Assembly: GCA_910890315.1 (NCBI GenBank) | Contig: CAJVGD010000001.1 | Span: 496,001 to 560,000, forward strand | Origin: Serendipita indica DSM 11827 | Lineage: Eukaryota; Basidiomycota; Agaricomycetes; Sebacinales; Serendipitaceae | Direction: 5' to 3' | DNA: 64,000 nt | Part shown: positions 5,906 to 60,163 of the stretch, piece after piece | Numbering within the stretch: the stretch's first letter is position 1 | Layout of the letters: each line of letters starts with the position of its first letter | Made by a program: the position numbers and the translations under genes | The notes under the pieces: model-generated | The model's input: the letters and a program-made list of their open reading frames with translations, nothing else | What the model was told of the DNA's origin: nothing | Databases searched by the model: none

Positions 5906-7026
5906 TTATATTAGCCCGTCCAAGAAGCCTGCGCTTTTTGTAGATGAAGTCTTCGCTGGAGGAGAGATAGGTGGAAGTGGTGCTGGGCTCTTGGGGAGAT
6001 AATCTTCAAGAACATCATCAAAGCTCGGTGTAGGAGCTGAAAATGGCTTAGTTGAGATGGCCAAGCATAAAAGACGAATCATACCTTTCAATGGCGCAGC
6101 CCGAGCAGCAATCCGTTCCGAAAGTCCACTGACAATCATCCGTCTGAGGCCGAGTGCATCAACAGGTGGTACCTCTTTCTTCGGAGGAGCAGCTGGCGTC
6201 CCACCAGGAGGGGCAGCAGATGCCGCACTCTTCTTATACGTCCCAGTTGGGCTGGATGCCTTTCCGATGAAAGCAAGGACGTCTCCTTTCGTCAACATGC
6301 CTCTTACACCGGTTCCCTTAATCTTCTTGTAGTCCTTGATACCCTCCTCACTGAGTAATCGGAGGACAGAAGGAAACACAGGTCCATCGACATGTATATG
6401 CTCCGAAGTTTTGGGCTTCGACGGTTCTGGAGCCGTCTGTGGTTTGCTCTCTTGCTTCGGAGGTGCTGCAGACTCTGCGGGTTTCGACGATGTCTCTTCT
6501 TTTGGCACCTCCAAGTTTGAGATGTCATCGCCTTCCTCGACAAGGAGGGCAATAACTTTTCCTACTGGAATACCACGCTCACCCTCCTTGATCTGTTGAA
6601 TTTGTCAAACCCGCGTACGACTGTACTCCCAGTCGACCTACAACTATCTTGCCCAGCACACCGTCTTCTTGCGCCTCCACGTCTATTGTAGCTTTATCTG
6701 TCTCCTATGATAATTGTTTTGTTGAGCATTTGAGCTCGCCATTAGCTTGTCGAACCCACAATCTCCAACAAGACGTCTCCGGCTGCAAAGGATTCGCCTT
6801 CTTTTTTCTTCCAAGACGCAATTCCTCCTTCTGTCATTGTAGGGGACATGGCAGGCATTGTGAACTGTGTCGTGGCCAGTCTTTGGGGTGTCGAATGGAG
6901 ACCTGCACCGAAAACTCGTCAACGAGCGCGTCCATTTCCCAAAGAATGATGCCTACTTCGGGCAGAACTCTGCATACTGGACAGGCATATCCGCCGAAGG
7001 GTGACTCTTGAATGAGCGAGCATCAT
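5906..7026 (-). CDS. PDX1: Pyruvate dehydrogenase complex component X (E3-binding protein)
   Basis: Mitochondrial matrix protein that anchors dihydrolipoamide dehydrogenase (E3) to the E2 core of the pyruvate dehydrogenase complex. It begins [14 protein letters not shown], an Arg-rich amphipathic mitochondrial presequence. A lipoyl domain follows ([14 protein letters not shown], with the lipoylated lysine in [10 protein letters not shown]), then an Ala/Pro-rich linker and a peripheral subunit-binding domain ([32 protein letters not shown]). The C-terminus is short ([11 protein letters not shown]) and lacks the E2 acetyltransferase domain with its HxxxDG motif, which separates PDX1 from E2. 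Start codon lies 42 bp from the divergent MZM1 start. Confidence 0.9.
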
Positions 7027-7068
7027 GGTCAGCTCCGAAAAGTTGGTCTCAACTGTTGACCCACGACC
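7027..7068. promoter_or_regulatory. 42-bp divergent promoter region between two mitochondrial genes
   Basis: Only 42 bp separate the start codons of PDX1 (minus) and MZM1 (plus). Both products act in mitochondria, so a shared bidirectional promoter could co-regulate them. No TATA box is visible in the gap itself. Confidence 0.6.
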
Positions 7069-7658
7069 ATGTCCGCCATTACACCCCAACTAAGGGCATC
7101 AGCCAGAGCAGCATATCGGTCGATACACCGTGCAGCGAATAAAGCATTTATGGGTGAGCATCGCTCCGCAAAACTCAAACGTAGTGTTGACCCATGTCAA
7201 GGTGATCCGGAGATTCGAAAAGGTAGCATTATTCAGCATGTTTAAGGAATTCTCTTGTTAATGCAAAGGGGACGATAGCTTTTGCGGTCAAGACACGCTT
7301 CGACTTTGTGTCTGCGTCGGCAGAAACAGACCCGGCTGCATACAAGGAGAGCGTCAAGTTGGCCAATGAAATTGCAGAAGTACTCACGAAGAACATTGTA
7401 CAAGGGTAGGCCTCCTCCTTTCTCTATAATCGTCGCACTCATACAGCGACAGGCGACGAAATGACGATGGAGTCTACAGTGCGTCAGTTAACCTGCGTTT
7501 AGAGTCTTCCTAATGCGAATCTAGGACTTAGAATCACAAAGGACACCGAACTCGGCTCCAATGAGACTATCAAGAACCCTGCCCCTATGGAAAGGCCGTC
7601 GAGGGCACGAAGACGAGCGAAAGAAGCTGCGACAATGTGCTGTGGCTCCTCTTCGTAA
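7069..7658 (+). CDS. MZM1: Mzm1/LYRM7-like complex III assembly factor (LYR family)
   Basis: Small mitochondrial matrix chaperone of the LYR family that helps insert the Rieske Fe-S protein into respiratory complex III. The joined exons read ASARAAYRSIHRAANKAF, GDPEIRKAFAVKTRFDF, then DPAAYKESVKLANEIAEVL, TKNIVQG and LRITKDTELGSNETIKNP, closing with a CCG motif seen at the end of fungal Mzm1 proteins. The third intron must end at ATAG just before the alanine codon of KAFAV to keep frame. The TAA stop (7656-7658) sits inside a perfect GTAAGT donor used by the overlapping downstream gene. If that intron is removed the protein would end SSSGR at 7711 instead. Confidence 0.85.
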
Positions 7659-8208
7659 GTAGGCGACAGCTACTACTGTGTATCTTCATATGTGATTCTA
7701 GCGGGCGATAGAAATACAGATACCACTTTAGCGGAACCGAAATCGTCGACTTTGAATTATTCGGCCCTCAAGAAGGCATCACGTGAGCGAGAGATTCCAG
7801 CATTGAATGAGGACGACTTGGAGGAGTCGTTTGTCAAAGGTATTCCAGCGCCTCTTAGTGTACCACTTGCTCACATCTCGTAGGTGGAGGACCGGGAGGT
7901 CAATGTATAAATAAACGCAGTACGAACGTGGACTTATTGCATATTCCGTCGGGTCTACGCGTTCAGTGCCAGGAAACCCGATCGCTGCAAGAGAATAGAC
8001 GTATAGCACGCAAACTATTAGCGAGAAAGGTAGCCTATATCTCTCCTCGTTCCTTTGTTTACTCATTGCATAGTTGGACGAGCTTTACAATCCAGGACTT
8101 TCCAGGGAAGCCCTGCTTGACGCGAAGGTCAGAGAACGCAAACGGCGAAAGGCAAAAAAGGCTCGGAAGAGGGCTCGAGAGGTGCCAAAGGATATCGAAG
8201 ATAGTTGA
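7561..8208 (+). CDS. Mitochondrial class I release-factor-like protein (Rso55 / MTRFR type)
   Basis: Short release-factor-domain protein thought to rescue stalled mitochondrial ribosomes. The catalytic GGQ motif is intact in GGGPGGQCINKRSTNVDL, followed by IPSGLRVQCQETRS and a basic tail (KRRKAKKARKRAR), as in Rso55/C12orf65. There is no in-frame ATG after 7702, so the start must come from an upstream exon. ATG 7561 opens a frame (MRLSRTLPLWKGRR, presequence-like) that runs 94 nt inside the last MZM1 exon in another frame and joins exon 2 through the intron 7655-7701 (GTAAGT, CTACTAC branch site, TAG, 47 nt). Later introns are 7840-7883 and 8030-8073. The domain call is firm; the start exon is inference. 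Confidence 0.8.
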
Positions 8209-24301: not shown

Positions 24302-26159
24302 TTAAAATACACCAAGCTCTTGGCACGCCTCGCGGAAGATGCGAATCCTGTCGCTGGCGTAAAGCAGGTAGTCAAACTCCATCACATCTTCTTCCTCTTC
24401 CTCTCCATCTTGGCGTTTCCCCTCCATCCGACGATTGATGCGCTCGACATCATCTCGCGCTTGGACTAGTGCCCATATGGCCCACATACCATGGGACGCA
24501 GGCATCCATCGCCTGACTTGCTCCTCCAACAAGTCCATGGCATCCGGAAGGACGGCCGAGCCGCGTCGTGCGAATTGCGCGAGCGGAGGGGTCTTGGACT
24601 GCATCTGCGTCAGGGAGCCGTGTCGTGAAATCTGCGCTTGAGAATTGTGTCTACTGAGTGCCGGTGTCGACGATGGAGAGTCGACGAGCTGTCCAGAGGA
24701 TCCCGTTGGTGTCTCAGGATCTGCTCGGCTTGACCTGTTATCAAGAACGAGCCCAGATTGGAGGTATGCGAGGAAAAAATTGTCGCGTTCGGCGCGCGTT
24801 GGGAACCGAGAGGGTTTGAGGAGTGCGGGATTCGACCCTAGGTAGTCTGTCGTCCATTCACAAAAGTGATTGGCAATATCAAACGCAGCACAGTTCGGAG
24901 ACGCATATTCAAAGTCTACGACGATGATCTGCATTGTTGTAAGTGTAATGTGACCTGCAAATCTTGGAGACGCACTTGCTGATGAGGTAACATTCCGGGC
25001 TGGGTCGTACGAAGACGAAGGAGATTGCCTAAACAAACATGAGCCTAAATATCCACTCAGAGGGCGATATCCTGACCGTATTGGGTATCATTATGACAAA
25101 ATACACGAGGACTTTCCTTGAGGCAGTCGTCCTCCTTTTCCCAGTCCCTTACCCACTTGTAGTAAGTGTCCCACTGCTTGACGAGAAGTTCAAAGTCGAT
25201 CTCTTTCTTGTATTCTTCATTTCTGATCAGAGAAAGCACCTCCCGTGCTGGTGGAATCCATGTGCGAACATTGCGTTTTACACCGAGCTCGCCACGGGTG
25301 CCGTCACCGGGATCTGCCCATTGTTTCGGATCGACGACCTTGCGAACATCGACACGGTGAAGTTCGGACATTCGAACTGCAATGCAGCGCGAGATGTGGG
25401 GGTCTCTGATATCACTCGACGTGAGCGGGTCAGACTCAAAGTATTCTTCTATCCTTCCGTTTGCGAACGTGCCCCAGACTCGAGGCCCTATTCGGTATCT
25501 GGAGGAGAGGACGTGAAGAATTCGAAGTTCGGCAGAACGGTTAATGAGAGATGAAGAAGAGGGACCATAGACACGTAAAAGGAGTGTCTTGTAGGGTGCC
25601 TTTGATTGGAAGCTCGTGATTTGTTCACGAGAGGTGGATGGGACGAGGACAAAAAAGACGGCGTTTGTCAGGGATCCAGAGACTTTGTGGATCCAGATGT
25701 CCCCCTTTTCTGGGGGTGCAACGCTCATATTGAAAGAACTTCGCGAGCTGATAGATGCATTGGAGGAGAGTGGACGCTCTGACCACGTAGGTACTTGTAG
25801 CTCGCCTAGGATTTGCATGAGCCTATCTAGAAACGAGCTCGTTTTATATTTCCTGTAGCCGATAGTCAATATCATGACCTCATGCCAAGCGCGCTGGACA
25901 CTGGGAAGATGGCCTTGGTTGCTCACTTTGCGTTCAATGCTATCTCAGAGTGTCTGAGGCCCTCTGTGGTAATGACCTCGTCTGGGAGCTCAATCGTCGA
26001 TTCTCCAGATGCCCGTGAGAGGAGAGACGCCGGTCTACTCTTATTCTTTATCTGAAATGGGTTCTCTCTTCCGTCAAAGGATGCGTTGGATGTAATGTTC
26101 GGGGAACTTTCATCCCCAGGATGGTCCAAAAACAGTTCGGAAGAGGATGCGGTGGCCAT
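24302..26159 (-). CDS. Choline/ethanolamine kinase
   Basis: First enzyme of the CDP-choline (Kennedy) route, phosphorylating choline or ethanolamine in the cytosol. Kinase-like landmarks: ISGSLTNAVFF-type motif as HKVSGSLTNAVFFVLVP, TLLLRVYGPS, RIGPRVWGTFANGRIEEYFE, the catalytic Brenner motif VFCHNDTQYGN and the choline kinase motif IIVVDFEYASPNCAAFDIAN followed by HFCEWTTDY. A Ser-rich insert sits before the C-terminal helix VRRWMPASHGMWAIWALVQA. The N-terminus (MATASSSELFLDHPGDE) is variable and its first introns are not fully settled. Convergent with CDC73, 57 bp between stops. Confidence 0.9.
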
Positions 26160-41895: not shown

Positions 41896-44800
41896 ATGGA
41901 AAACACCAGCAGCGGCACAACGCGCTGGAATGCGCTCTCGCTTCCAATAGCAACTCAGACAGACGCATTGGTAGCACAGTTTCCAGACCTCGAATGGCTC
42001 ACAGCGCTCGAGACAAGTCAGCGACTACACGCACTATCCAAGCTCTTAAAATCACCGAAACACACTCTTGGTGTTGCCAGAATGTTTTCTCCGCTTCTCG
42101 TAGATCTCTGCGCGCGATGGTTGGATGACCAGGAAGAAGACGAGCAAAAATTTACAGTCTTTGGACTCCTCTTGCCCGCCCACGAAGAACTCTATCCGTA
42201 CGTCCCATTTATCTATGACTCTATTGTTTTCTTAATCAACCGTCAGCGTCTTTGCCCGGTTCCTCCAGCGGCCTTCGCTCGCAAATGGCCCACTTGCGTT
42301 TGTGACGCGCGAGAATGCCGCACATATACCAAAATCGACGCTCCATCCTCTATTGCTAGCCTACCACCGCATCATAGAGGCTATTCCGCATATCCATCGC
42401 GATTTTCAATGGCCAGCGACCCATCTGCAGAGTCTCTGCGATCCTCCCCATCCCGAATCCGGAGTCAGGCTACTTGCACTCCGCTGCTTTGCCTTTCATG
42501 TTGGGATGAACGAACCAGCTCGTGTCAAGTGGGAAGAGTCGCTCGTCGGAACTCCAGCAAACGTTACGCCGACGGTGGAAACAGGCTTTGGCGACTCTGT
42601 CAACATATGGACACTCCCTCTACTTGACCATAAAAGAGTCATTGACGAGAGACTAGCTTTGACTGTCACCTTTGACTTGTGCAAGGCTGCTCCGCTTATT
42701 GATGCCACGGCATTATGGTGAGGATCGCGTTCGTGGCTTATTTGGTCGCTCACATTCTACTAGTCCCTATGTCACCACTGTTGGAGGAGTTATCCTCCTC
42801 CGGTCAAACGCGCTGCAGCCGACAACGCCATATCTCAGCTTCAACGCTAATTGGAGCACACTTCACGATGTTGCGAGGCTGCTTCAGCAACGGCAGCCAA
42901 TACTACTTTCTGGCTCATCTTCGAGCGGTAAATCCACCCTCGTCGAGTACCTCTCAAGCTTGTTGAACCATCATTCCTCAACGGCTGTTGTATCCATTCA
43001 CCTTGCGGACACGTCTTTAGACTCAAGATCCCTGCTTGGGTCCTATGTGTCATCTGCAACAACACCAGGCGTCTTCGAGTGGAGGGACGGTGCAATCATC
43101 CAGGCCATGCGAACTGGGCGGGTGCTTGTGCTAGAGAACATCGACCGTGCCAGTAGCGAGGTTCTTGGAATGCTCTGGCCCCTCGTAGAAAGCATGAGCA
43201 TGGCAAAGCCAATCGGGGACCATGCGTCCTTGCAAGTGTTTGGGCGTGAGACTGTACGCGCAACGGAGGGGTTCTCTCTATTCGCTACTAGGACGGTTTC
43301 TCCGTCCCAAAATGGTGAAATTCCGCCAGCAAATTTTCTTGGTTCGCACAAGTGGCGACACGTACAAGTACCCGAGCCCTCTGGAGAGGACCTGGTGGCG
43401 ATTGTTGAAATGTCGTTTCCAAAAATGAGTCCACAACGCGCCAAGGCCCTGGTCGCGGTCTGGGTTAGGCTCAGATCGGTGGAACACGATCTGAATCCAT
43501 CGACTGTTCGCCCCATTGGACTCCGCGACCTTCTTAAATGGAGCAGCAGGATAAATCTTGTGGAGCCTCCTACGGAATCGATGGCTTGGGAGGCAGAGCA
43601 GCAAATCCCATTGAGCGCGCTGTTCAGCAACCCCATCACTCGAGAAGACATCTTCCTGGATGCAATGGACATTTTCTTTGGCGCATACAATGAGAGCAAG
43701 CAACTTTCATCTACATATCTCGACGCGGCTGCCACGTTCTTGGCCGTAGAGCTCTCAATCAGCTCTCATCGACTGCAGTGGCTTCGTTCTGCTCGATGTC
43801 CGCAACTCGAGCTGCTGAAGAATTCGAATGGTGCCACGACTGGGCTTGTACTGGACCGGATCGTTTTGTCCGCTGTGGATCCTTCCTCCCAAATCAATGC
43901 CCAAGCTCTTCGTCCATTTGCTCTTCACCGACCATCTCTCACTCTCTTGCACTCCCTCGCCGCCGCTATTCGCGCCAACGAGCCAGTGCTACTTGTGGGA
44001 GAAACAGGTACAGGAAAGACTACTGCTGTTACACATCTGGCTACTCTTCTAAATCAGTCGTTGGTCTCCTTAAACTTGTCGCAGCAGACAGAGACCTCCG
44101 ACTTGGTGGGAGGGTATAAGCCCCAAGACGCACGTGGCCCAGCGCAGGATCTTCAGAGAAGGTTTACGAGCCTCTTTACCGTCACGTTCAGTCGCGAGAA
44201 GAATGTCAAGTACGAAGAAGCGATTCGTTCCGCCGTTGCGAATGGAAAGTGGAAGCGAGCAGCGGTCCTCTGGAAGGAAGCAGCCGGGAGAGCAAAGGAT
44301 CGTCTTCAATCCAAGATTGACAAAGACACAGCCCAAAGGTTTTTCCTCTTTTTCCCATGAAATTCGCAGTCTTACCCTCTGTTTAGTGGTGGATCAGAAG
44401 AGCCAAGGAAGAGGCGAAAGTTGGATACAGGCGAAAACTTGGAAGCGAAACTTAACAATTGGAGTAAATTTGAGGAGGAAGTCAGCGTTTTCGAGGGCAA
44501 TTCGTTCGTGGAAACGCCAAAGGTGTATTTGCCTTCGTGGAGGGACCTCTCGTGACTGCACTTAAAAGAGGAGATTGGTAAGGTTCACTACAACCTGAAA
44601 AAGATTGCTGAACATGAAATAGGATTCTTCTCGACGAGGTCAATCTTGCAAGCTCAGAGACGCTCGAAGCTATCTCTTCCATCCTCCATAGTCCTCATGC
44701 ATCAATTACTCTGACAGAGCAAGGGTCATTGGTACCTGTAGAGCGACATCCCAATTTTCGCCTCTTTGCGTGCATGAATCCGGCGACAGACGTCGGCAAG

Positions 44801-47800
44801 AAGGATCTTCCTCAACATATTCGAGCATTGATGACGGAACTCTACGTACCACCGCCGGATGCCAACCCCGACGCACTGCTAGCCGTAGTCGAGCAGTACA
44901 TCGGCCACATCTCTATGGCGGACAGAGCTGCCATCATGGATGTCGCCGAGTTTTACACGTTGGCGAGGAAAATGGCTCAAGCAGGAGAGCTGGCAGATGG
45001 GTCCAACCAGAGGCCACACTACAGTATGCGCACGTTGACGAGAGCGTTGACCTTTGCCGTTCATGTGAATACCCTTTTCCCCCTCAGACGAGCACTGTGG
45101 GAAGGGTGCCTAATGTCGTTTTCGACCATTCTGGAGCCAAAGAGTTCCGACGTTTTCAAAGCCCTCGCCCTGAAACACCTCCTGGGGAATGCAAAAAATG
45201 TTCGATCTATACTATCTCAGATACCATCAGCTCCAGCAGATGGCACTGAATACATCTCTGTTGGTCCATTCTGGCTCGAACGAGGGCCCACAGATCCCCT
45301 CCCTATCAACCATTATATTCTCACTCCATCGGTTCAAGCGAAACTCCTCGATCTTGCTAGAATCCTCGTCACTCGCCAATTTCCAGTACTCATCGAAGGA
45401 CCGACCTCTAGCGGGAAGACCAGTGCCATCGAGTATCTTGCAAGACTCACTGGTCATCGGTTTATACGCATTAACAATCACGAACATACCGATATCCAAG
45501 AGTACCTCGGTTCATACGTGACGAACCCCGAAACCGGGCTGCTCACGTATCAAGACGGTCTTCTCGTTCGTGCTGTGCGAAGAGGAGATTGGATTGTCCT
45601 CGACGAGCTCAACCTCGCTCCGAGCGATGTCCTTGAAGCCCTGAACCGCCTATTGGATGATAACCGCGAGCTTGTGATACCTGAAACCGGCGAAGTTGTT
45701 CGACCACACCCACATTTCATGCTCTTCGCCACTCAGAATCCTCCCGGTCTCTACGGCGGTCGGAAGATATTGTCACGAGCGTTCAGGAACCGCTTTCTCG
45801 AGGTCCACTTCCAAGATGTTCCCCAAAACGAATTGGAGCAGATTATCCAGGAACGATGCGGAATTGCCCCATCTTACGCTCACCGCATCGTTGCAGTTTA
45901 CCAAGAGTTGCAAAGGCGGCGTCAAGCTGGTCGCGTATTCGAGACAAAGCACGGCTTTGCAACTCTTCGTGACCTGTTTAGGTGGGCCAATAGAGGCGCC
46001 GGAAGCGTACAAGAGCTGGCGGAAGATGGATATATGCTCATTGCCGAGAAATCGCGGAGAGAGGATGACAAGGCTATCGTCAAGGAGGTCATCGAGTCCG
46101 TCATGAAGGTGTCTATCCACGAGAGCCAGATCTACAACATTCATAATCCAGCAGTCGTCCAGTCACTTGCTTGTCCGCTTCCGTCCGATGGGACGATAGT
46201 TTGGACACAGGCGATGCAACGAATCTTTGTCCTGGCATCGCGTGCACTTCGCCACAAAGAACCTATCCTTCTCGTCGGCGACACTGGGTCCGGGAAGACT
46301 TCTTTCTGCGAAATCTACTCTCAAGCAGCCGGAAAGGCTCTCTATACCGTCAACTGTCACCAAAATACGGAAACGGCAGATCTTCTGGGAGGTCAACGTC
46401 CTATTCGCAATCGCGCCTCGCTCTTAGGCGAGAAAGAGCGATTCGCCAGGTCCTGCCTGGGGTCACTCGAGATAGCAATCGACCCGTCTATGCCTATCGA
46501 GACGCAAGTCCAGATGGCAATATCTACCGAAAACCGTCCTGAGATAAAGGGGAAATTAATCGAGGTTCTCAAGGGATTACAGAGACTGGTTCCGCTGTTT
46601 GAGTGGCAAGATGGACCACTGGTCACTGCGATGCGATCGGCATCAATGTTCCTTTTGGACGAAATTTCGCTTGCAGACGACTCAGTCCTGGAGCGTCTGA
46701 ACAGCGTTTTGGAACCAGAGAGGACGCTCGTTCTTGCAGAGAAGAGCGGATGGGATGGCGAGTCCCTAGAAGTCGTCGCCCATAGCGAGTTTCTACTAGC
46801 AGCGACCATGAATCCTGGAGGAGATCATGGAAAGAAGGAGCTCTCTCCTGCATTGAGGAATCGATTCACCGAGATTTGGGTGCCGCCGATTAGCAACAAG
46901 GATGACAAGGTTGCCATTGTGCAGGCCTCTTGGCATAATGCAGTCTTGACTCCATATAGTGAAAGAGTGGTCGATTTCTTGATAGCAGTTGGTGGCCTTC
47001 TCGAGGACCCTCTGGCGTATGGAATAAGAGATCTCCTCGTAAGTTTCATTTCTTTGCATCTAACCTGTGCCCCCACCTAATTTCACTCTAGGCATGGGTT
47101 CATTTTTCAGACGAAATCTTCAATGCAACGGAACTTTCTGCCAAACAAATTTTTGTGAGTTTGCCCCGCTAGGAGTCACTTGCTCTAACTCTCTCTCGCT
47201 AGCACCATGCTGCACATCTCGTGGCACTAGATGGCCTAGCTGCCATACCACAAACTCAGGGATTTAGCGAAGCGGCCATTGAAAGGCTCAGAGCAGAGGC
47301 CATAAGGATACTGAATGAAATGGTCCCAGACGGCAAGCCTGAACCAGAGATAAGCGTTCATGTCAAGCCAGCTACCATTGCCATTGGGTCATTCTCAATT
47401 CCGCTCGGCCCTTTGGATCCTCCAATGTCGAATTCCAGATACATGCTCCCACAACGCTCAGCAATATCCATCGTGTTGTGAGGGCTTTGCAGCTAAAAAA
47501 GGCCATCTTGCTTGAAGGGAGCCCTGGGGTTGGGAAAACGAGTTTGGTCGCTGCTCTCGCGGCAATCTCTCGCCAGCGCCTATGTCGTATTAATCTGTCT
47601 GATCAGACTGACATTATCGACCTTTTTGGGTCTGATCTCCCTGTTGAAGGGGGTCAACCAGGAGAATTTGCATGGAGAAACGCCGCCTTCCTTACTGCAT
47701 TGCAGAACGGAGACTGGGTGCTCTTGGACGAAATGAACTTGGCTCCCCAATCGGTTTTGGAAGGTCTCAATGCTGTATTAGACCATCGAGGCTCTATCTT

Positions 47801-50800
47801 CGTCCCCGAGTTGGGTCGTACGTTCACCAAACACCCAGCATTCAGGCTTTTCGCAGCCCAAAATCCGGTCCAGCAAGGAGGTGGCAGAAAAGGACTCCCA
47901 AAATCATTCGTCAATCGGTTCACCAAGGTTTTTGTTGACTCACTGTCGACCGACGACCTCCTGAAGATCGCTCAAACCGTGAAAGGAAATTATCCAGAGG
48001 AGACGCTGAAACGGATGATTGCACTCACCCAGCACATCCACATGGAAACCACTGTCACCAAATCTCTCGGCCGAAAAGGATCGCCTTGGGAGTTCAACCT
48101 ACGCGATCTCATACGCTGGTTAGAACTTACAGACCATCCCACGAATTTGGAGGCTCGTTCAGGACATCCTGTGGATTTTGTTGGAGAAATCTTCGCCCAG
48201 CGGTTTCGGGAACCAGCCGAGCGCAGGAAGATATACGAAGCCGCAGTTGATCTCCTGCAGCCGACGTCTTCAGGAGTTGAAAGTGCCCACTTCTTCCCCA
48301 CGACGTACTATATCCAATTCGGTCATTCGCTGATCCGTCGAAAGGCTTCATGGCGCGAGTCCACATGGGTTGCCCCTGTCCTTCGTGATCATCTCTCTTC
48401 TTTCGAAGTCATTACACGCTGCATCGATCAAGGCTGGCTGGTCATACTCGTTGGAGGCCCGGGTTCCGGCAAGACGACAATTCTGCGACAACTTGGCTCG
48501 TTTTATGGAGAAAAGGCGGTGAAATTCTCTGCAAGTTCTGCTACTGACACTTCTGATCTTTTAGGTGGCTTTGAACAAGACGACGGACAACTCGGCCAGA
48601 GGCAGGCCATTAAAACGATTCGCGCATTCATGGACAGTCTCTCACAATCAAATCCGTTCGTTGCGCCCGATATCGGAGAATGGCTCTCTGATTCCCGCGT
48701 GGATGTTGTAAAACTGCGACAGGTTTGCCAGCTTCTACCGGAGGACCAGAGATCCGCTGTCGAGGATGACATTTTAACCATAGAGACTGCACGACTCACT
48801 CATCGATTTGTCTGGGTAGATGGTCCGCTCGTTCATGCACTCAAGGAGGGCTTATGGTTCATCCTTGACAACGCTAACCTTTGCAGTCCATCCGTTCTTG
48901 ATCGACTGAACTCTTTGTGCGAGCAAGGAGGTCAGCTCATACTAACTGAGCGTGGTCTTATCAATGGGGCGATCGAGACTATACAACCTCATCCCAACTT
49001 TCGGCTCTTTATGACGATGGATCCATTGAACGGAGAGCTCTCACGCGCTATGCGAAATCGAGGAGTCGAAGTCTATGTTGATGCACCCAAAACGCCTCAA
49101 GACTTGATCGAAATTGACCTGTTTAGACGTACACCGCTAGCAACGAATTCAGTAACCGGCCATGTGGAAGGGCGACAGACTATGCTCATGAGCCACCTCT
49201 CCTTAAGCTCCCTCCAGCGTCTCTTGAGGATGGCACGTTTAGTGGAACACGCTGCGCCCATCCAACAGAATTTATTCGTCTCCCAGCTACTTTCGACAGC
49301 GGAAATCAGCTTCTTGTCTCATCTTCAGCACCAATTCGCCCTAGACACGCAAGGAGCTCTTGTTGGTACGACAGCGGACGATATGCCGCAAATTGGTCTC
49401 CCCGCATCGTTTCTTCAGTCTCAGGTCAGGGACCAAACTATTCTCATACATTGTTAACGTCTTCATTAGCCCGAGGAAATTATGCTGAATCCCAATCTAC
49501 TTGCTAGAATCAGATCCGTTGGGTTGGACGTGCGCGTTGCATGGAATACATGCCGACGACGGATTTACTCATTAATCAACGCCATCGGAAAGTCGTCGCG
49601 TACTGAGGGCCACAATCCACTGCATCAGTCTATATTCAATATCTCCGAAGCTCAGTTCAGCGGACGTTTGATTGGGGGCAGCGTTGCCGAGGAAGTCAAG
49701 GCAGTCTATCCAGTACTCTACTCTGTGCGACAGTTTTTAGAGAGCTTAATGGGTTCGCCTGTTCCCGTCATTGTCAGTTTTGCATATGTGCGTACCTATC
49801 TCTCTGTCGCTCATGCTCAAATATAGGATATTTCTATCTGCTACACCCTAGCCGAGCTATGGTACTACGGCTTTGAGATTGCGCAGCAAAATCGTCTTGA
49901 CTATTCTTCGTGGATATCGATTCTCTGCGAGATGCGAGATGCAATAGGCTCGATTTCCGATCGACATCTTCGCGAGACGCTCCGCGATGCACTTGAAAGC
50001 ATACGACTGAAGAGTGGGTTTGAAATGAAGAGTATATGGATGCTGCATAGAGATCACCAGGCGGGTCGGCAACGTGCAAGCCTTGCCTTAGTGCAGCTGA
50101 ACCAGACAAGCAGAGATAGTGGTAGATACACGCCATCACTCATTCACCTCGTTAACGCTCTAACAGGTAGGCTCTTTGGGCGGCTAGTTGATATTGCGGC
50201 ACTCCAGTGGTTGAATGAGAACTCTCAGGATGAGACAGTGACGCCGTTGTTGGGGGAGAAAACGGTCAGTTCTGGGGCCAGTATTTACATATCCTGACTT
50301 TCCCCAAGGGTTTACAGGATGAATCAAGCGGCTGGGTTGCGGTACAACTCCTCAATCTTCATCTCACCATGCTCGGTGGTTTCATATCGACGGTATGGCT
50401 GTTCCCGATAACGTTCCCCACTCACTCTTCAAAGGCATCAATTGAATCTCAATTGCTTGGTGTACTGTGTCAGCTGGCTATGGCTACACCTGGGTATCCA
50501 ATGGGGGGAATTATTACCCTAAGCTCTGCGAAGTGGGCAGAAAAGCTAAAACTTGGTCCGTCCATTCCTCCCACACGAACGCGAGCTCACGCTTGTTAGA
50601 CCACCGTCGCTGGGCATCATTCTCATTTGGTGATTGGACAACTGGAACGCTCGCCGGGGAGGGTGAGGGCAAGGTACTTTACCTAAGCAAGTTGCCAAAG
50701 GGCTCTAAGACTCACACATCCACTTAGCCGGGTAAACTAATGGGCCGTTATGCAAAGTTAATGGCAGTTGCTCGTCTTTGGTGAGTAGGCCGTCTACTAG

Positions 50801-53800
50801 GTGAAAGACCAGGCCTGATACGTCATTCTCAAAGTGCCGGGGGTCGAATCCCCATGAAGTATAGCAAATTCCATGAGGCAATGCTGCAGAATTCGCTCCT
50901 CGCCTCGGTTCTGGAGCTTCAGATGCCTCTCAAAAGTCATGCGGATGATCTTATTAGCATCCTGCGCAATGATATGGAAGTGGTATGTCTATTCGTGATA
51001 TATGATAATGGCTAATGGATTAAAGCTTCACACGGCTTTAATAAAGGGTTCGGGAGGGCCAATCGTCAAGTACCACGATCTCGCCTCCTTGATGACTTCG
51101 CTCAATCAAGAAGCCAGAGAGGACTCGATAATAAAAGAGCTCTTTCATATCCTTGGAGTCGCAATGACAGCGATCCAAGACGCATCCAATGACCAGGCTC
51201 GTGTGTCAGCCGTTGCGGAATGCTACTCCTATCTTGCAATTCTTGTTTTGCGCCTCTACGTTCCCAATATTCCATTAGATCCACAGGCCAGCTCTATAAC
51301 CAAACGTCTCCACCTAGTCCTCACCCAGCGCGGACTAGACTCAGAGCTCCAATTGCACCAGGAGGCCGAACGGATTTTAACGGGAAACGAGTCCAACCCT
51401 TATATCGAACTTCTCAAGGAGCAATTGAATGGCGTCACCAGTCGCCTAAACGAAACGACCTCACCACAGGAGTCTATACCGAGGAGTTTGGACGAACTCA
51501 CTGCACTATGCACGGAACTCTCACGGTTCCATGATACCATCATACAGCCGACTAAGTTCAAAGCTCTCATCGAGGGCTTGAAAAATCGTGATACGATGGC
51601 TCAACAAAGGGAGGAGATCGACCAGGATTCCTGGAGGCAATTTACAGAAAGGGTCGAAGCCAAATACCCAGAGTTTGGAGATATTGTGTATCCAGTACTC
51701 ATGTGGGTGAACCGGCTACGTTTCGGAGTAAACCTCCTGCACGTCAGCAGCGGCCACTCGCCAACAGACTACTTGCGTCTTGTCGGTGACTTCGCTCATA
51801 CGACAACGAGCTTTCCAGCGCTTTCTGGGGCAAGTCGGATAGCGTCTGGTGGATTGCAAGTGCCTCCCCATGTCGTCCCCCATGACTGGTCCGTCCTACG
51901 TATCAATGCGTCTCTTTTATTAGTGGCCTCCGGCGAGCCAATCGAGATCCATCGCGCCCTCATTGCATCCTCGTTCCAGCAATTATTTGGACTTTGGCAG
52001 GAGGAGAAGCGAAAGGCGGATGAAGAGGAAGGTCAACAGTCCTCGCTGTACAAGCAGAGGAAAAGCACATTCGTCCAGCTTTCCGAGGAAGAACAGGAAG
52101 CTCAAGAGTTCAAGCAACTCTTCCCGGAGTTTGAGGACGTGATGAGCGACCCTCAACCAGCACTATTCACCAAAGACCCCCGAGTGGACACGAAATCAAC
52201 CTATCAACTCTTTATGGCGGTCAACTCTCCAGATCCCTCCAATATGCAGATCCCCGATGCCGAGCTTTTTAGTACGCGAAACTTGGCCCGTTGGCTTCGC
52301 AGCGCGCGATTGGAAGGCGATTTCACCGCAGACACCAGTGTTGTCTATCGCATTCGCACCGCATCGCATCGCCTCCAATGTCTACATCAAGAACGCGGCC
52401 CAGACGCTGGATACAACTTTTATCATGACAGCAATGTCACCGAGATTACCCGCGCCCTCAAGATTGTGTCAGCACTCCAAGACCGGCTCTTAGAACTCAT
52501 CGGTGTTTGGCCGGATCAGATGGTTCTTAAGCATATCAAAGAACGCTGCGAGGCAATCACAGACCTTGACATCGAGTCAAGTGTTGCAAGAGTACTCTCC
52601 GCCTTGGAACAGCTCCTCCTACATACCGAAGACTGGCAGAAATATGCAGACAGAGAGAATAGCCTAGCCATTCACCAGGAGGCTCTGAGTAATCTCATTG
52701 TGGAGTGGCGCCGCTCCGAGCTTGCATGCTGGGCTCATCTATTGGATCACCAGGCCACCGAATTTGCGCAAGACTTGGAGGAGTGGTGGTTTAGACTTTA
52801 TGAGAATTTTGTTTACGCCTCGAAGATGGAGAGGATGGATGGGGCGGGCGAAGACGCGTATCTCGACCAGCTACTCCCTCTCCTGGAGAGTTTTGTAACC
52901 TCCTCGCCAGCAGGGCAGTATGCGAGCCGACTTGAACTGCTGAAGGCCTTCGTCAACTATATCCGGGAAATAGTTGCGCAGAACTCGTCACTCTCAGTGC
53001 GAGTTGCGCATCTATTGAACTCGGTCGTGCAATTTTACTCAAGTTTTCGATCGAAGGTATCCACTAGCATTCAGTCGCAGCGAGAGAGTATCGACAAGGA
53101 GATCAAGGGATTCATCAAACTGGCGAGTTGGAAAGACATCAATGTTCTTGCTCTCAAAGCAAGTGCGCAGAGGACGCATCATCAGCTTCACAAGTCGATT
53201 CGAAAGTTTAGGGAGGTTCTTCGCACACCAGTCAGCCTACTTCTTTCGCAACCATCCACTCTAGAAACTCGGGAGGCTTTAAACATAGAAAGTTCTTTCA
53301 ACTACCCCACTCCCCTCCCAAAAACCTCGCTCCCTCAAGTGCCGTCCGCGGTGGGTGCCCTCAGGAACATCGAGAATACTCTTGGGCTGTATCAAGACAT
53401 CCTCAACTCGAGTTTTTCTAGCCCGGAACAGCCGTTAGTCGAGGATTTCGCCTCGAGTATTGTAGAGGCAGTCGCGGAGCTTCAATCCGCTGTTGCTCCA
53501 GCTGATGCCGACAAAAAGAGAGGCTGGCTCAAGAACCTTCAGAACCGGAAGCGAAAAGGGCTCGCAGATCTTCTCAAGGCGTGCAAGGCCGCCGGTCTTT
53601 CGTCACAGCCCAGACATGATATTACCGGACAGCAGCTCAATCGTAGGTGGCTGTTCGAACAACGAGTCCCTGTTGAAATCCCATCAACATCTGCACAAAA
53701 GATGGACACATATTTCGATAAAGTCATTGCTGCACTACCCAAGCTCCATTCATCGCTGTCATCGCACTCCAGCGAAGTGTCGACCAAAGATCTCTCTAAA

Positions 53801-56800
53801 CTTCTCCATTTCTCCCAATCGCTCCTCTATTTCGCGATACAGAGTCGTTCATGGTAAGTATTCAACCCCTTAAGTGGCCTCTGACTTACAAAGCGTAGGG
53901 TGCTAGAATGTCAAACTATATCGTCTAGGCTTGCCTCAGTCGTTCACATTCTCGAAGCCAATGGAGCATGCCAGTTGTCCGACGCTGGAAATCACGCCCT
54001 GCACCGTCTTTCGGTGTATGCTTCCGTCCTCGCTTACGCCACTCAATCTACGCAAAATATCAGAGACGTGGCACTCGAGATTCAGAACCTACCTTACGGA
54101 TTCCTTCCATTTAACTTTACCGTACTCAAGGAACTCGAAGAACGTCTCTCCCAAATGAGTACGCTCAAAGTTCGGATAGAAGAGCTGCGCATGCGCTCCA
54201 AACAAGGACATATCATCCTACTCTTCTCAGGTAATATCTTTGCCGCGTATGGTGAATCACATTGATTTCAGAGTAGATGAAAATAATCTTCTCGACATCG
54301 CAAAAGCGTCTCTTTGCGATCTCTGCAAAGTCCTTAAGAGCTGGTGCGAAGAAGATCCACGAGCTCAACATCTTTGCGGATTAGTGGTCGCGACCTTGGA
54401 AGAAAGAATTGACCTGTTGCCAAGTTACGCACCCTATGCATTTGAAGAGAAGCAGATAGACGAGAACCCTCTCAACGTTCTCCTTGTTATCGCTCAGCGA
54501 TTGAAAGGGTTCTCGGCTGGGGTACCAGGAGAGGATTTCGTCAAACAAGGGGCTACCAGATATCGCACCTTGAATACCATCTTTGACGCAGTTCGTGTTG
54601 CCCAAGAGGTTGATGCGTTTTTCTTGTGTCTTCCCCAGTCATCTTCTGCGACTTTATACATGCAGCGACTACACCCGTTTCTCGCCACTTATCAGCGTTC
54701 CTTGGATAGCTACTTCAAACAACTTGTGCTCTGGACGAAATCACTCTTCAAACTTTGTTCAATTCTTTTGAACCTCGCCCAAGATCTTGCCGACCGAGGC
54801 TTTTGCCAACCGCAGGATGCTCCCCCCGATTCTCGAACAGACACCGGCCAGAAAATGGAGGGTACAGGTGTCGGAGAGGGAAGTGGTGACAAAGACGTGA
54901 CGAATGAGATCGAGGACGACTCGCAGATGGAAGGACTCCAGGGGGCTGAGGAGGAGAAACAGCAAATGACCGAAAGCAAGGAAGAAGGAAGAGAGATGGC
55001 CAACGACTTTGAAGGAGATTTAGAGGATGTAGCCCAAGATGAGAATGACGGCGAGGACGACAATTCCGATTCGGACGCTTCAGAAGTCGAGGAAAGGGCC
55101 GAGAATCTGGACCCTGCAGATCCCGGGGCTGTCGACGAGAAATTGTGGGAAGGAAAGGCGGACAAAGGGGATCGGAAGGAGGATCAAACTACAGATCAGC
55201 CTTCGAAAGAGGTGCCTGGGGAGTCCGAAGTTGGGGCAAAGAGAGACGATAGCAATAAGCGGAGCCAGCAGGATCCAAAAATGGAAGATGCACCGCCAGA
55301 CACCGAGGAGGTGCCGTAGGAGAGGAGGATGAAGAGGGTGAAGATGCCCCAGATACCACCAATATGCCCAATGATGCAGGTGCTCCAATGGAGGATTTAC
55401 CACAAGATGGTGAAGCGCTCGAATTGCCGGACGACCTTGATATGGGCGAAAAAGGAGAGGTTAATGAGGAGGAGCAAGGCAGCGGAGACATGGACGAGCT
55501 CAGTGAAATGGCGGACGACAACAACGAGAAGCAACGAGATGATGACGAACACGACATGGAATACCAAGAGCAACTAGAGGCTACAGAAGACGAGCCAGGC
55601 ACCCTGCCAGAAGAGAATAGAGATGCCATTGCGCAGCCGGATGAAGTAGAGGGAAGCGGACAGCAGGATACTCGGGGCGGCGGTACTTCTATGCTCGAAC
55701 TCGGGACTGAAGCAAACGCGGACAGAGACATGGATGAGGAAATGCACGACGCGAATGAAGCTCTAAATACAGACCAGTATGCATCGCCTCCCTTTCTCTC
55801 GCGAGTCACTTCTGACCAACTTCTAGACAACCCGAGGGCAATAGTGGCATGGGCAACAATGCAGAGACAGAAGCCACTGCCACAGGAGAAGCCCCAGTTG
55901 AATCGAGACAATCGAGCGGAAATCAAGAGGTGTCGATGTCTGACCAAGTACAAACAACACCACGATCCGTCGCAGAAGCTCTGTCTCAAGTCCGCCGCAA
56001 CTATCAGGAGATTTTAGAGAGACTCTCTCAAGCGAATCACCTACCAGCAGACAAGACAGAGTTTCAATCTGTGGAGCATGCTGTTGAAGAAGACGAGAAT
56101 ACTCAACTAGCACTTGGTACCGCCGAAGATGAAATCGCTCGTCTGCGTGATCTCAATCTCATCGATGAGACTACCGAGAAGCTTGATCAAGAGGATACAG
56201 ACTTGGTCGATTTGGAAGATGAAGGTTCCCACCACCAACTCACGCCGAAGCAAACTCCAAAGCCTCTATCCAGCTCCGCCCAGAAGGAAGGCAGTGGCGA
56301 AAGGTCCGAAGAAGCCCTCGTTGGAGACGAGATTCGTCGTCAATTTGGAACTCAAAATGGCCGGGCAGAGCTTCCATCTTCGGAACGCCAACCTTTGACA
56401 AGCGATGATGTCGAGTCAAGGTTGGTGGCCTGGCAAAATGATCCAGAGTGCACTGAGAGCGCGGAGACAATGTGGCGTCTGTATTCTTCGCTTACCCACG
56501 ACCTCGCCTGGGGCCTCTGTGAACAACTCCGACTGACCCTCGAGCCGACAAAGGCCACACGACTGCGCGGAGATTACCGGACGGGAAAGCGCCTGAACAT
56601 GAAGAAGATTATTCCCTACATTGCGAGCGAGTATACAAAGGACAAGATCTGGCTCCGTCGTACACGCCCAAGCCAACGCGAATACCAGATCCTTCTGGCA
56701 CTCGACGACTCACGGTCCATGTCCGAGTCGCACTCGGAGCACCTGTCGTTCGAGACGTTGGCCCTGGTGTCCAAAGCGCTCACAAGGCTCGAGGCCGGAG

Positions 56801-57330
56801 ACATCTCGATCGTCAAGTTTGGCGAAAGCGTTCAGGTTTTACATGGATTCGATGACGGGCCTTTCAACGATGCCGCTGGTGCCAGGGTAATGAACAGCTT
56901 TACGTTCAGTCAAACTTCGACAGACGTTCTGGCTCTCGTTGAGACAAGCATATCAGTTCTACAAGAGGCGAGAGAGCGGCGCGGAAATGGGTCAAGCGGT
57001 GCAGCGAATCTATGGCAATTGGAGATCATCATCTCGGATGGGATCTGCTCGAATCACGACGAGCTGCGCGCTGTCATCCGACGTGCACGCGAGCAGCGTA
57101 TCCTCGTCGTATTCATTGTCGTCGACGCACTCGCTCGCACCCAAGGCGGGGGTGGCAAGGTGGAGAATTCCATTTTATTCATGAAGCAAGTTCGTGATGA
57201 CCTGACGATCGAACGGTACCTCGATACGTTCCCGTTCGAGTACTATGTTGTCTTGCGGGATGTCAACGCTCTTCCCGACGTCCTGTCCGCGACACTGAAG
57301 CAATTTTTTGAGCATATAGCAGAGGAATAG
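41896..57330 (+). CDS. MDN1: Midasin, AAA+ ribosome-assembly ATPase
   Basis: About 4,800 residues, the largest gene here. Dynein-like AAA+ machine that removes assembly factors (Rsa4, Ytm1) from pre-60S particles in nucleolus and nucleoplasm. Six AAA modules show Walker A motifs in order: GSSSSGKST near 42.91 kb, GETGTGKTT 44.0, GPTSSGKTS 45.4, GDTGSGKTS 46.27, GSPGVGKTS 47.52 and GGPGSGKTT 48.45. A long helical linker follows, then an Asp/Glu-rich segment (about 54.9-55.8 kb) and the C-terminal MIDAS domain (LALDDSRSMSES at 56.7 kb, FGESVQVLHGF). An intron with GTATGC near 55.78 kb gives DQ-QPEGN in frame. In the acidic segment near 55312 one base seems to be missing (EEVP to VGEEDEE). Confidence 0.95.
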
Positions 57331-58441: not shown

Positions 58442-60163
58442 CTAACAATCCCATCCCCAAATGAACTCTCCATCTTCTGGTGGCGACGATTGGTAGTCAG
58501 GTGGACACAATCCAAACCCAAAGAGCTCGTGCATCGCCAATTCCACTACTCCACGTGACGCCAACGTCTGCGTCTCCATTGTCGAAATGAACGACTCGAA
58601 TCCGTTTACATAATACAGATTCTTGTCAAGCTTCATTGGATTGTATCGCGTCGTGGGTGGCAGTCTCGGATATGCGTCCCACTGTAGCAGTCTCCAGTCA
58701 GTGCCTTGCTTTAGGAAAGGAAGGATACTGACCTCTTTTCTGTGCACCCATCCCACATGTCCAAATACGTCGTGCAACCACTCATCACTCAAGGGCTGCA
58801 TAGAGAATATCTTGACATTCCACTCGTCCCGATCTTCCGCCACTTTGCCATGATAGCTGAGCGAATTGAATTCGGGTGGTGTACGGCCAGCTCGTATCCC
58901 TTGTGCAGTTGTGAGAACCATGGTAGGCACTGCTTCATCTTTCAAATGGAAGTATTTGCCCTTCGGTTGTGGTGATTTTGTGGTGAGAAGTGTCACGTGT
59001 AAATGAGTGTACGCTGTTGGTGCAACTGGAGCGACAGAGCTCGGTAGATCAATCTCAAGCGTGTCGTACGGCGCAGCTATAATGACCGCGTCGTATTTCT
59101 CGATCATGGTCGTTGGTCCCGACGGTGTGTCTTTGATCGCAATGAGCGTCCATTTATCGTCATCTCCGCGTTGGAGAGACTTGACCTTGGTCTTTAGGTG
59201 TACATTGGCCTCGGAGAATTTGAGCATGTTGGCGAAAACTTGGTAGTTTCCGCCTTTAATAGATTTGGCACCGTTTGGGGCCATGGAAACTAGCCCCTCG
59301 AGCGCGTGTATGTCATCTAGATTAGACGCATAGTTGACACGCGTGGCACTCTCGACGACCTCGAATGCGAATGCCTCGCCAATCCCTTGGTTTGCGAGAT
59401 AGGTCGCCGTGTCCACTTCAGTCAGAGAGGTAAAATTGAGGGCAGACGAGACGGCCTCGACGCTATTCCAGGAAGTGATGGTTGTATAGAGCGAGAGATA
59501 GGTGTTGACCATTTGCTTGACGAGCGCATTCACGGTCATGGGGGATCGATAGCCGTATCGCCAGAGTAGCCGGATGTTCTCCCAAATTTTGCCAAAGAAA
59601 CCCTTGTTGCCTGTCTGCGGCATAATGAGCACACAAGCAAAAGGTTAGTCGGAAGACGGAAGACGCACGGTGACCAAGAATTGCGACCCGTCCCAGATTC
59701 CGACCAGCTCATTGTCTTCACCAAATTCAATCGTCTCTAAATCATATTGGAGGGCAGCGCGGACCATATTCTTGTTCGCGTCGACGAATATGGATGCCCC
59801 CAGTTCTACCGGTGCTAAGGCCGTGTCATTGTATGGGTAGACGACCGTACTCCCTACCCACGCGTTAGATTCGTCTAATGACCATCTCTAGGACTTACTG
59901 CCGCCAACATAATCCGCGCGTTCGAACACGTCGACTCCAACAACCTTTTGTGATCGTCCTGTGGCGAATCCAATCCAATTTGCCGCCGAAGAACCTGCTG
60001 CTCCCGCTCCGATAATTGCAATACGTGGGTTGCTTGGTACAAGGACGCCTGGACCTTCAGGTTGCATAACGTATTGGTCTGCAGCGACACCTTTGCTTCC
60101 AAACAGAGAGCTCCAGCTCAATGCAAGAGCAAGTGTAGGATATGGGAGCAGTCGTAAGATCAT
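58442..60163 (-). CDS. Prenylcysteine oxidase (FAD, PCYOX1-like)
   Basis: Lysosomal/vacuolar-type flavoenzyme that cleaves prenylcysteines from degraded prenylated proteins to free cysteine, an aldehyde and H2O2. N-terminal signal segment (MILRLLPYPTLALALSWSSL), then the FAD motif RIAIIGAGAAGSSAANWI and FERADYVGGSSTVVYPYND. The body matches PCYOX proteins: LGASIFVDANKNMVRAA, WDGSQFLVTT, SIKGGNYQVFANMLK, YDAVIIAAPYD, YYVNGFESFISTMETQTLAS and the terminal WGWDC. Three or four introns cluster in the 5' half; the last exon spans 58442-59632 nearly unbroken. Confidence 0.88.

Follow-up and report, generated by a model that had tools for sequence, protein, structure and literature searches.

Probable same-strand overlap of MZM1 and a mitochondrial release-factor gene in a fungal nuclear genome

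The genes for MZM1 and for a C12orf65/MTRFR/Pth3-type mitochondrial release factor (hereafter RF) lie on the same strand of the window (the whole stretch of DNA analyzed, 64,000 nt), and their coding regions probably overlap in different frames, with the AUG of RF inside MZM1. RF would be translated from an AUG within MZM1, most simply the one at 7561, with those at 7366, 7461 or 7467 as possible alternatives, and its start would be joined to the catalytic exons through the predicted removal of a 47-nt intron (Table 1). MZM1 would be read in the other frame, ending at the stop at 7656 if the intron is kept or the transcript ends early, and at 7709 if the intron is removed. The splicing of the intron, the choice of AUG, and the route by which ribosomes reach it are the parts of this model that we infer. 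If real, parts of two conserved mitochondrial genes, in different frames, occupy the same coding DNA of a nuclear genome. A gene finder that allows no overlaps, such as the crude one used here, has no means of representing this layout: one gene would either lose its first exon or be fused to the other.

Table 1. Features of the MZM1/RF locus and other genes recognized in the window (positions are those of the window).
Feature	Positions	Strand	Details
Upstream ORF	7025-7093	+	22 aa; A at -3, G at +4; overlaps MZM1 start codon
MZM1	7069-7658	+	Five exons: 7069-7153, 7202-7222, 7279-7405, 7447-7478, 7525-7658; 132 aa (spliced model)
MZM1 start codon	7069-7071	+	A at -3, T at +4
Possible longer overlap	7366-7560	+	RF frame open in spliced MZM1 mRNA; ATGs 7366, 7461, 7467
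RF (C12orf65/MTRFR/Pth3-type)	7561-8208	+	170 aa in shortest AUG model
RF exons (spliced model)	7561-7654, 7702-7839, 7884-8029, 8074-8208	+
Predicted overlap coding for MZM1 and RF	7561-7654	+	94 nt, model with RF start ATG 7561; RF frame is +1 to MZM1
Predicted intron	7655-7701	+	47 nt; donor GTAAGT with MZM1 stop TAA, branch-like TTCAT, acceptor TTCTAG
MZM1 stop TAA	7656-7658	+	Inside donor GTAAGT
Relocated MZM1 stop TAG	7709-7711	+	Arises once intron 7655-7701 is removed; adds Gly-Arg
Alternative acceptor AG	7710-7711	+	With donor 7655, joins MZM1 and RF in one frame
Pdx1/E2-like gene	5906-7026	-	Pfam E3-binding domain on 5909-6604; end from crude gene finder
Choline/ethanolamine kinase	25060-25944	-
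Midasin (MDN1-like) AAA gene	41896-57330	+	Pfam midasin lid domains on 44618-47077
Prenylcysteine lyase	58445-59644	-

The two genes and their shared sequence

The RF product matches the Pfam RF-1 domain with 74.9 bits (E 6.4e-21; cut-off 35) over profile positions 6-102 of 116, and the spliced protein includes GGPGGQ, giving an RF-1 domain with its GGQ. The best PDB matches are C12orf65 (E 2.4e-23) and a C12orf65 homologue (E 2.7e-22), while RF2 (E 1.8e-10) and YaeJ/ArfB (E 0.0054) come further down and no chain named ICT1 occurs among the 50 PDB matches listed. By these matches, RF is nearer to C12orf65 than to either ICT1/ArfB or the RF1/RF2 factors. In yeast, the C12orf65 homologue Pth3/Rso55 was shown to rescue antibiotic-stalled mitoribosomes (PMC7940416), and Schizosaccharomyces pombe Pth3 is also named a C12orf65 homologue (PMC3919214).

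The identity of MZM1 as a LYR-family complex III assembly factor is held less firmly than that of RF. Its Pfam Complex1_LYR match (16.8 bits, E 0.0068) is sub-threshold (curated cut-off 24.8), none of its four PDB matches up to E 10 is a LYR protein, and NCBIfam gave zero matches. Compared with yeast Mzm1, 38 of 103 residues are identical, although the yeast sequence used is approximate; the identities include the C-terminal KDTELG-NETI block of the yeast protein. The main BLAST alignment to this yeast sequence stops at residue 107. On the RF side, residues 1-31 are outside all stretches matched in Pfam, PDB, and NCBIfam, with matches beginning at residue 45 at the earliest. The match limits of each protein thus put the shared 94 nt where both MZM1 and RF look little constrained.

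Two frames are open on these same bases, each with a start and a splice path, as same-strand dual coding would have it. The earlier note had described this layout, and its coordinates, frames, 47-nt intron, and stop codon within GTAAGT all agree with our spliced models. Frame reading likewise bears out its statements that an in-frame ATG is missing from RF exon 2 and that splicing would move the MZM1 stop; the new stop would add two residues to the protein. Intron removal would connect ATG 7561 to RF exon 2; the remaining six introns of the MZM1 and RF models measure 41-56 nt. RF exon 2 begins after a gap of only 43 nt from the MZM1 stop. Because of this short gap and the missing in-frame ATG, it is almost unavoidable that RF either has its 5' end inside MZM1 or is cotranscribed with it, and the 43-nt spacing makes a single RNA across both MZM1 and RF a likely prediction. 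Left unspliced, RF exon 2 is in the MZM1 frame, which is closed by the MZM1 TAA. We set aside readthrough of this TAA into RF, since intron sequence would be translated.

The wider neighborhood reads as fungal DNA, with a G+C content of 0.48-0.57 in 2-kb steps along the window and with short introns. Upstream of MZM1 and divergent from it is the Pdx1/E2-like gene, for which Pfam listed no catalytic domain on 5909-6604; its lipoyl part and presequence were recognized by eye. Its start ATG (7026) is only 42 nt from that of MZM1, and its first intron (6956-6903) is 54 nt. The Pdx1/E2-like gene, MZM1, and RF are thus three probably mitochondrial genes packed into about 2.3 kb, the spacers between them measuring 42 and 43 nt. 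Farther along the window, the crude gene finder split the midasin region into three; we take the remaining pieces of 41896-57330 to belong to the midasin gene.

Splice routes into RF exon 2 and alternative gene structures

We searched for routes into RF exon 2 with AG acceptors at 7640-7789, introns of about 36-161 nt, donor scores of at least -1, and AUG starts, taking each ATG-opened upstream exon without further introns. This yielded 11 routes, of which seven open at ATG 7561 and four are in the MZM1 frame. Four routes use donor 7655: acceptors 7701, 7719, and 7731 lead to ATG 7561, and acceptor 7711 leads to an in-frame fusion with MZM1. One route joins donor 7659 to acceptor 7711, opening at ATG 7561 and keeping the MZM1 stop. 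The remaining six use the weak donor 7642 and are evenly divided between ATG 7561 and fusion, the fusions going through acceptors 7701, 7719, and 7731. Ranked by donor score, the top four routes all use 7655, and three of these four open at ATG 7561; 7655 to 7701 is the strongest-donor route via the first AG far enough from the donor. Donor 7655 is the best of the seven donors of both models under a hand-set consensus matrix; under a weak matrix from only 7 introns, it ranks third (4.67 vs. 6.2 for 7406 and 5.34 for 7479). Within the search (AG 7640-7789, introns up to about 161 nt), there was no other nearby in-frame AUG for RF outside MZM1.

The dual-coding reading of the earlier note is partly supported. 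It is the best-supported reading in that an RF start elsewhere has little room and the strongest-donor route leads to ATG 7561, but the same sequence also spells a fusion. MZM1 and RF could be a single fused protein, or MZM1 alone could be made alongside the fusion through alternative acceptors. Splicing from donor 7655 to acceptor 7711, the best of the four routes in the MZM1 frame, would take out 57 nt, the MZM1 stop among them, and leave a single frame that is open through to the RF stop; the MZM1 part would then serve for import, perhaps with cleavage inside mitochondria. The crude gene finder chose this intron, though in an otherwise poor model that misses MZM1 intron 1 and stops short at 7883. 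Rsm22-Cox11, a tandem protein cleaved after import, is a precedent (PMC4381221). Against a fusion, acceptor 7711 (CGATAG) scores 1.99 vs. 4.59 for 7701 (TTCTAG) under the weak 7-intron matrix, MZM1 ends at a stop of its own, and human C12orf65, going by its PDB chain, is a solitary protein of 166 aa. Acceptor 7711 also sits 10 nt behind acceptor 7701, and the first AG past the branch point usually wins. We consider the fused protein unlikely, though it is the main alternative to dual coding.

Alternatively, RF could begin in an exon farther upstream, across a long intron, or close to exon 2 at a codon other than AUG, in which case MZM1 would not be dual coding. The route search covered AUG starts and introns no longer than about 161 nt, which leaves space for such a start. 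However, a long intron would be out of keeping with the 41-56 nt of the MZM1 and RF introns and with the 54 nt of the one neighboring intron. Among 65 gene-finder introns, 95% are at most 74 nt, a figure that is partly built in, as the program allowed 40-119 nt and favored 52. A start within 7659-7701 would leave almost no N-terminal presequence. A start outside MZM1 or at a non-AUG codon is improbable on these grounds. It is very improbable that the overlap seems forced through a sequence, assembly, or haplotype error or through decay of the RF gene: a single copy of the locus was examined, but both spliced frames are intact and RF retains GGQ and most of the RF-1 domain.

Candidate AUGs and how they might be reached

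The overlap of MZM1 and RF may be longer than 94 nt, because in the spliced MZM1 mRNA the RF frame is stop-free from 7094 to 7654 (123 codons) and contains in-frame ATGs upstream of 7561. The third frame across the MZM1 exons has six stops and zero ATGs. The start at ATG 7561 proposed in the earlier note has a spliced path to exon 2, but it is in weak context and shares its frame with ATGs 7366, 7461, and 7467. Positions -3 and +4 are C and A for both 7561 and 7366, 7461 carries G at -3, and the context is best for 7467, with A at -3 and G at +4. By a crude count, N-termini beginning at 7561 or 7366 carry five basic and no acidic residues in their first 15, and those beginning at 7461 and 7467 carry one basic and three acidic. 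Thus, despite its context, 7467 is a less likely start for an imported form.

As for how RF would be reached, we favor, as the simplest route, a transcript with its 5' end inside MZM1, since the MZM1 AUG, with A at -3, should limit leaky scanning and since on a dicistronic mRNA the MZM1 stop would come before two more introns, an arrangement that may provoke decay. For leaky scanning, ribosomes would have to pass both ATG 7069 and the in-frame ATG 7150, which looks inefficient, and backward reinitiation from the MZM1 stop is implausible. A second possibility is a long-leader RNA on which the 22-aa upstream ORF would carry ribosomes past the MZM1 start, followed by reinitiation in the RF frame; in the spliced mRNA, the end of this ORF is 169 nt from ATG 7366 and 277 nt from ATG 7561. 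An obstacle to such reinitiation is ATG 7150, in the MZM1 frame and 57 nt past the upstream ORF. The ORF is on the RNA only where transcripts begin upstream of 7025, and a long leader would reach toward the divergent Pdx1-like gene. With such transcripts, the upstream ORF could act as a switch.

Chance expectation and codon use

We compared the locus with shuffles in which the MZM1 protein was fixed and synonymous codons were changed, either following the codon use of the window or by permuting codons within the gene (20,000 per mode). The +1 frame was open over the last 31 codons in 0.81-0.86 of shuffles; the openness of the 94-nt overlap is expected by chance. Openness over 123 codons, back to 7094, was found in 4.8-4.9% of shuffles with window codon use and 1.3% with permuted codons; in 6,239 overlapping 123-codon segments of long ORFs, the corresponding values were 0.9% in +1 and 3.6% in +2. 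An ATG at 7561 arises in 0.53-0.66 of shuffles because the site falls within Asn-Glu of the conserved MZM1 block, and four or more RF-frame ATGs arise in 0.025-0.054. A start with at least four basic and no acidic residues in 15 appears in 14-15%.

Codon scores in the RF frame differ along the gene. Over 7561-7654, the score is no better than in shuffles (P 0.59-0.67; 0.72-0.79 given openness), and 7094-7365 gives no signal (P 0.17-0.29). The segment 7366-7560 reaches P 0.005-0.009, or 0.031-0.058 given openness, among four segments and two nulls. Its score is attained in +1 by 2.0% of all 36-codon control segments in long ORFs and by 6.1% of those that are open. This modest signal is not leaned on, since it weakens given openness and is reached by this share of open controls. 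Altogether, the statistical case for dual coding is weak to moderate; the main argument is that the route search found no other RF start.

Relation to known overlapping and tandem genes

Overlapping frames and tandem genes are already known kinds of arrangement; a Candida CCT8/TRP1 overlap, for instance, is reportedly the subject of an earlier paper, going by its title. An overlap of two conserved mitochondrial genes through a stop-containing donor, as proposed here, was not found among the literature matches listed. Specifically, the titles and abstract beginnings of these open-licence matches include no overlap of MZM1/LYRM7 with a release factor. Scans of viral contigs returned no relatives of RF, of MZM1, or of alignments with yeast Mzm1 or C12orf65 stretches, and prokaryotic genome contigs returned none for MZM1 or its alignment; as these collections are viral and prokaryotic, absence from them is uninformative about fungi.

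Arthropods offer a possible parallel, in part through Drosophila CG30100, which we take to be a C12orf65 homologue. LYRM4 joined to a C12orf65 RF-1 domain is reported as predicted, unreviewed fusions in five insects, with the caution that annotation errors may lie behind many predictions of this kind (PMC4381221). CG30100, called a translation release factor, has an mRNA with a conserved 70-aa upstream ORF (Ka/Ks 0.08), and the pair was traced to an Ixodes EST (PMC2276209). Both papers appear to describe a LYR ORF before C12orf65, which suggests that the 70-aa ORF encodes a LYR protein. The likeness to our locus is a small ORF, probably LYR, that precedes a same-strand gene of the C12orf65 type. 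The differences are that the arthropod cases consist of an upstream and a main ORF or a predicted fusion, with shared coding DNA not described in the relevant passages, and that the LYR protein is called LYRM4 there and is MZM1 here. These parallels make both a functional pairing and a fused protein more credible at our locus.

A LYR gene and a C12orf65 gene could even form an expression unit that recurs among distant eukaryotes, with fusion or dicistronic expression in arthropods and dual coding in this fungus. The RF frame here would extend across most of MZM1, so that start-site or promoter choice would balance complex III assembly against mitoribosome rescue; we regard this as doubtful speculation. 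If the overlap is true, it would, together with the arthropod cases, make the reason for the coupling of a LYR gene with C12orf65 open to testing, and for fungi it raises the question of whether a second frame is reached by internal promoters, upstream ORFs, or splicing.

In Agaricomycetes, where intron style would tentatively place this window, RNAs spanning two genes are reported, each gene also being transcribed separately (PMC4503453). Among 1165 overlapping pairs in Ganoderma lingzhi, subtraction leaves 91 that are not opposite in direction (PMC11590231). Such polycistronic transcripts resemble our locus in carrying close tandem genes on one RNA, but their genes are spaced apart, with mean distances of 364 nt for ORFs and 433.98 bp for gene pairs (PMC4503453; PMC11590231), whereas the coding regions of MZM1 and RF would overlap. 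TP53BP1/SEP53BP1 combines a promoter switch with upstream-ORF reinitiation at an internal overlapping ORF (PMC10193022) and illustrates one way in which RF could be reached; it is a mammalian case with a small novel protein, and we propose it here by analogy.

The dual-coding gene INK4a/ARF shares with the MZM1/RF locus the use of one DNA stretch in two frames. The same holds for XL-alpha-s/Alex, described as a dual-coding gene (PMC2329644). In both of these, the second frame yields an extra product of one locus, whereas here it would be the start of a separately conserved gene.
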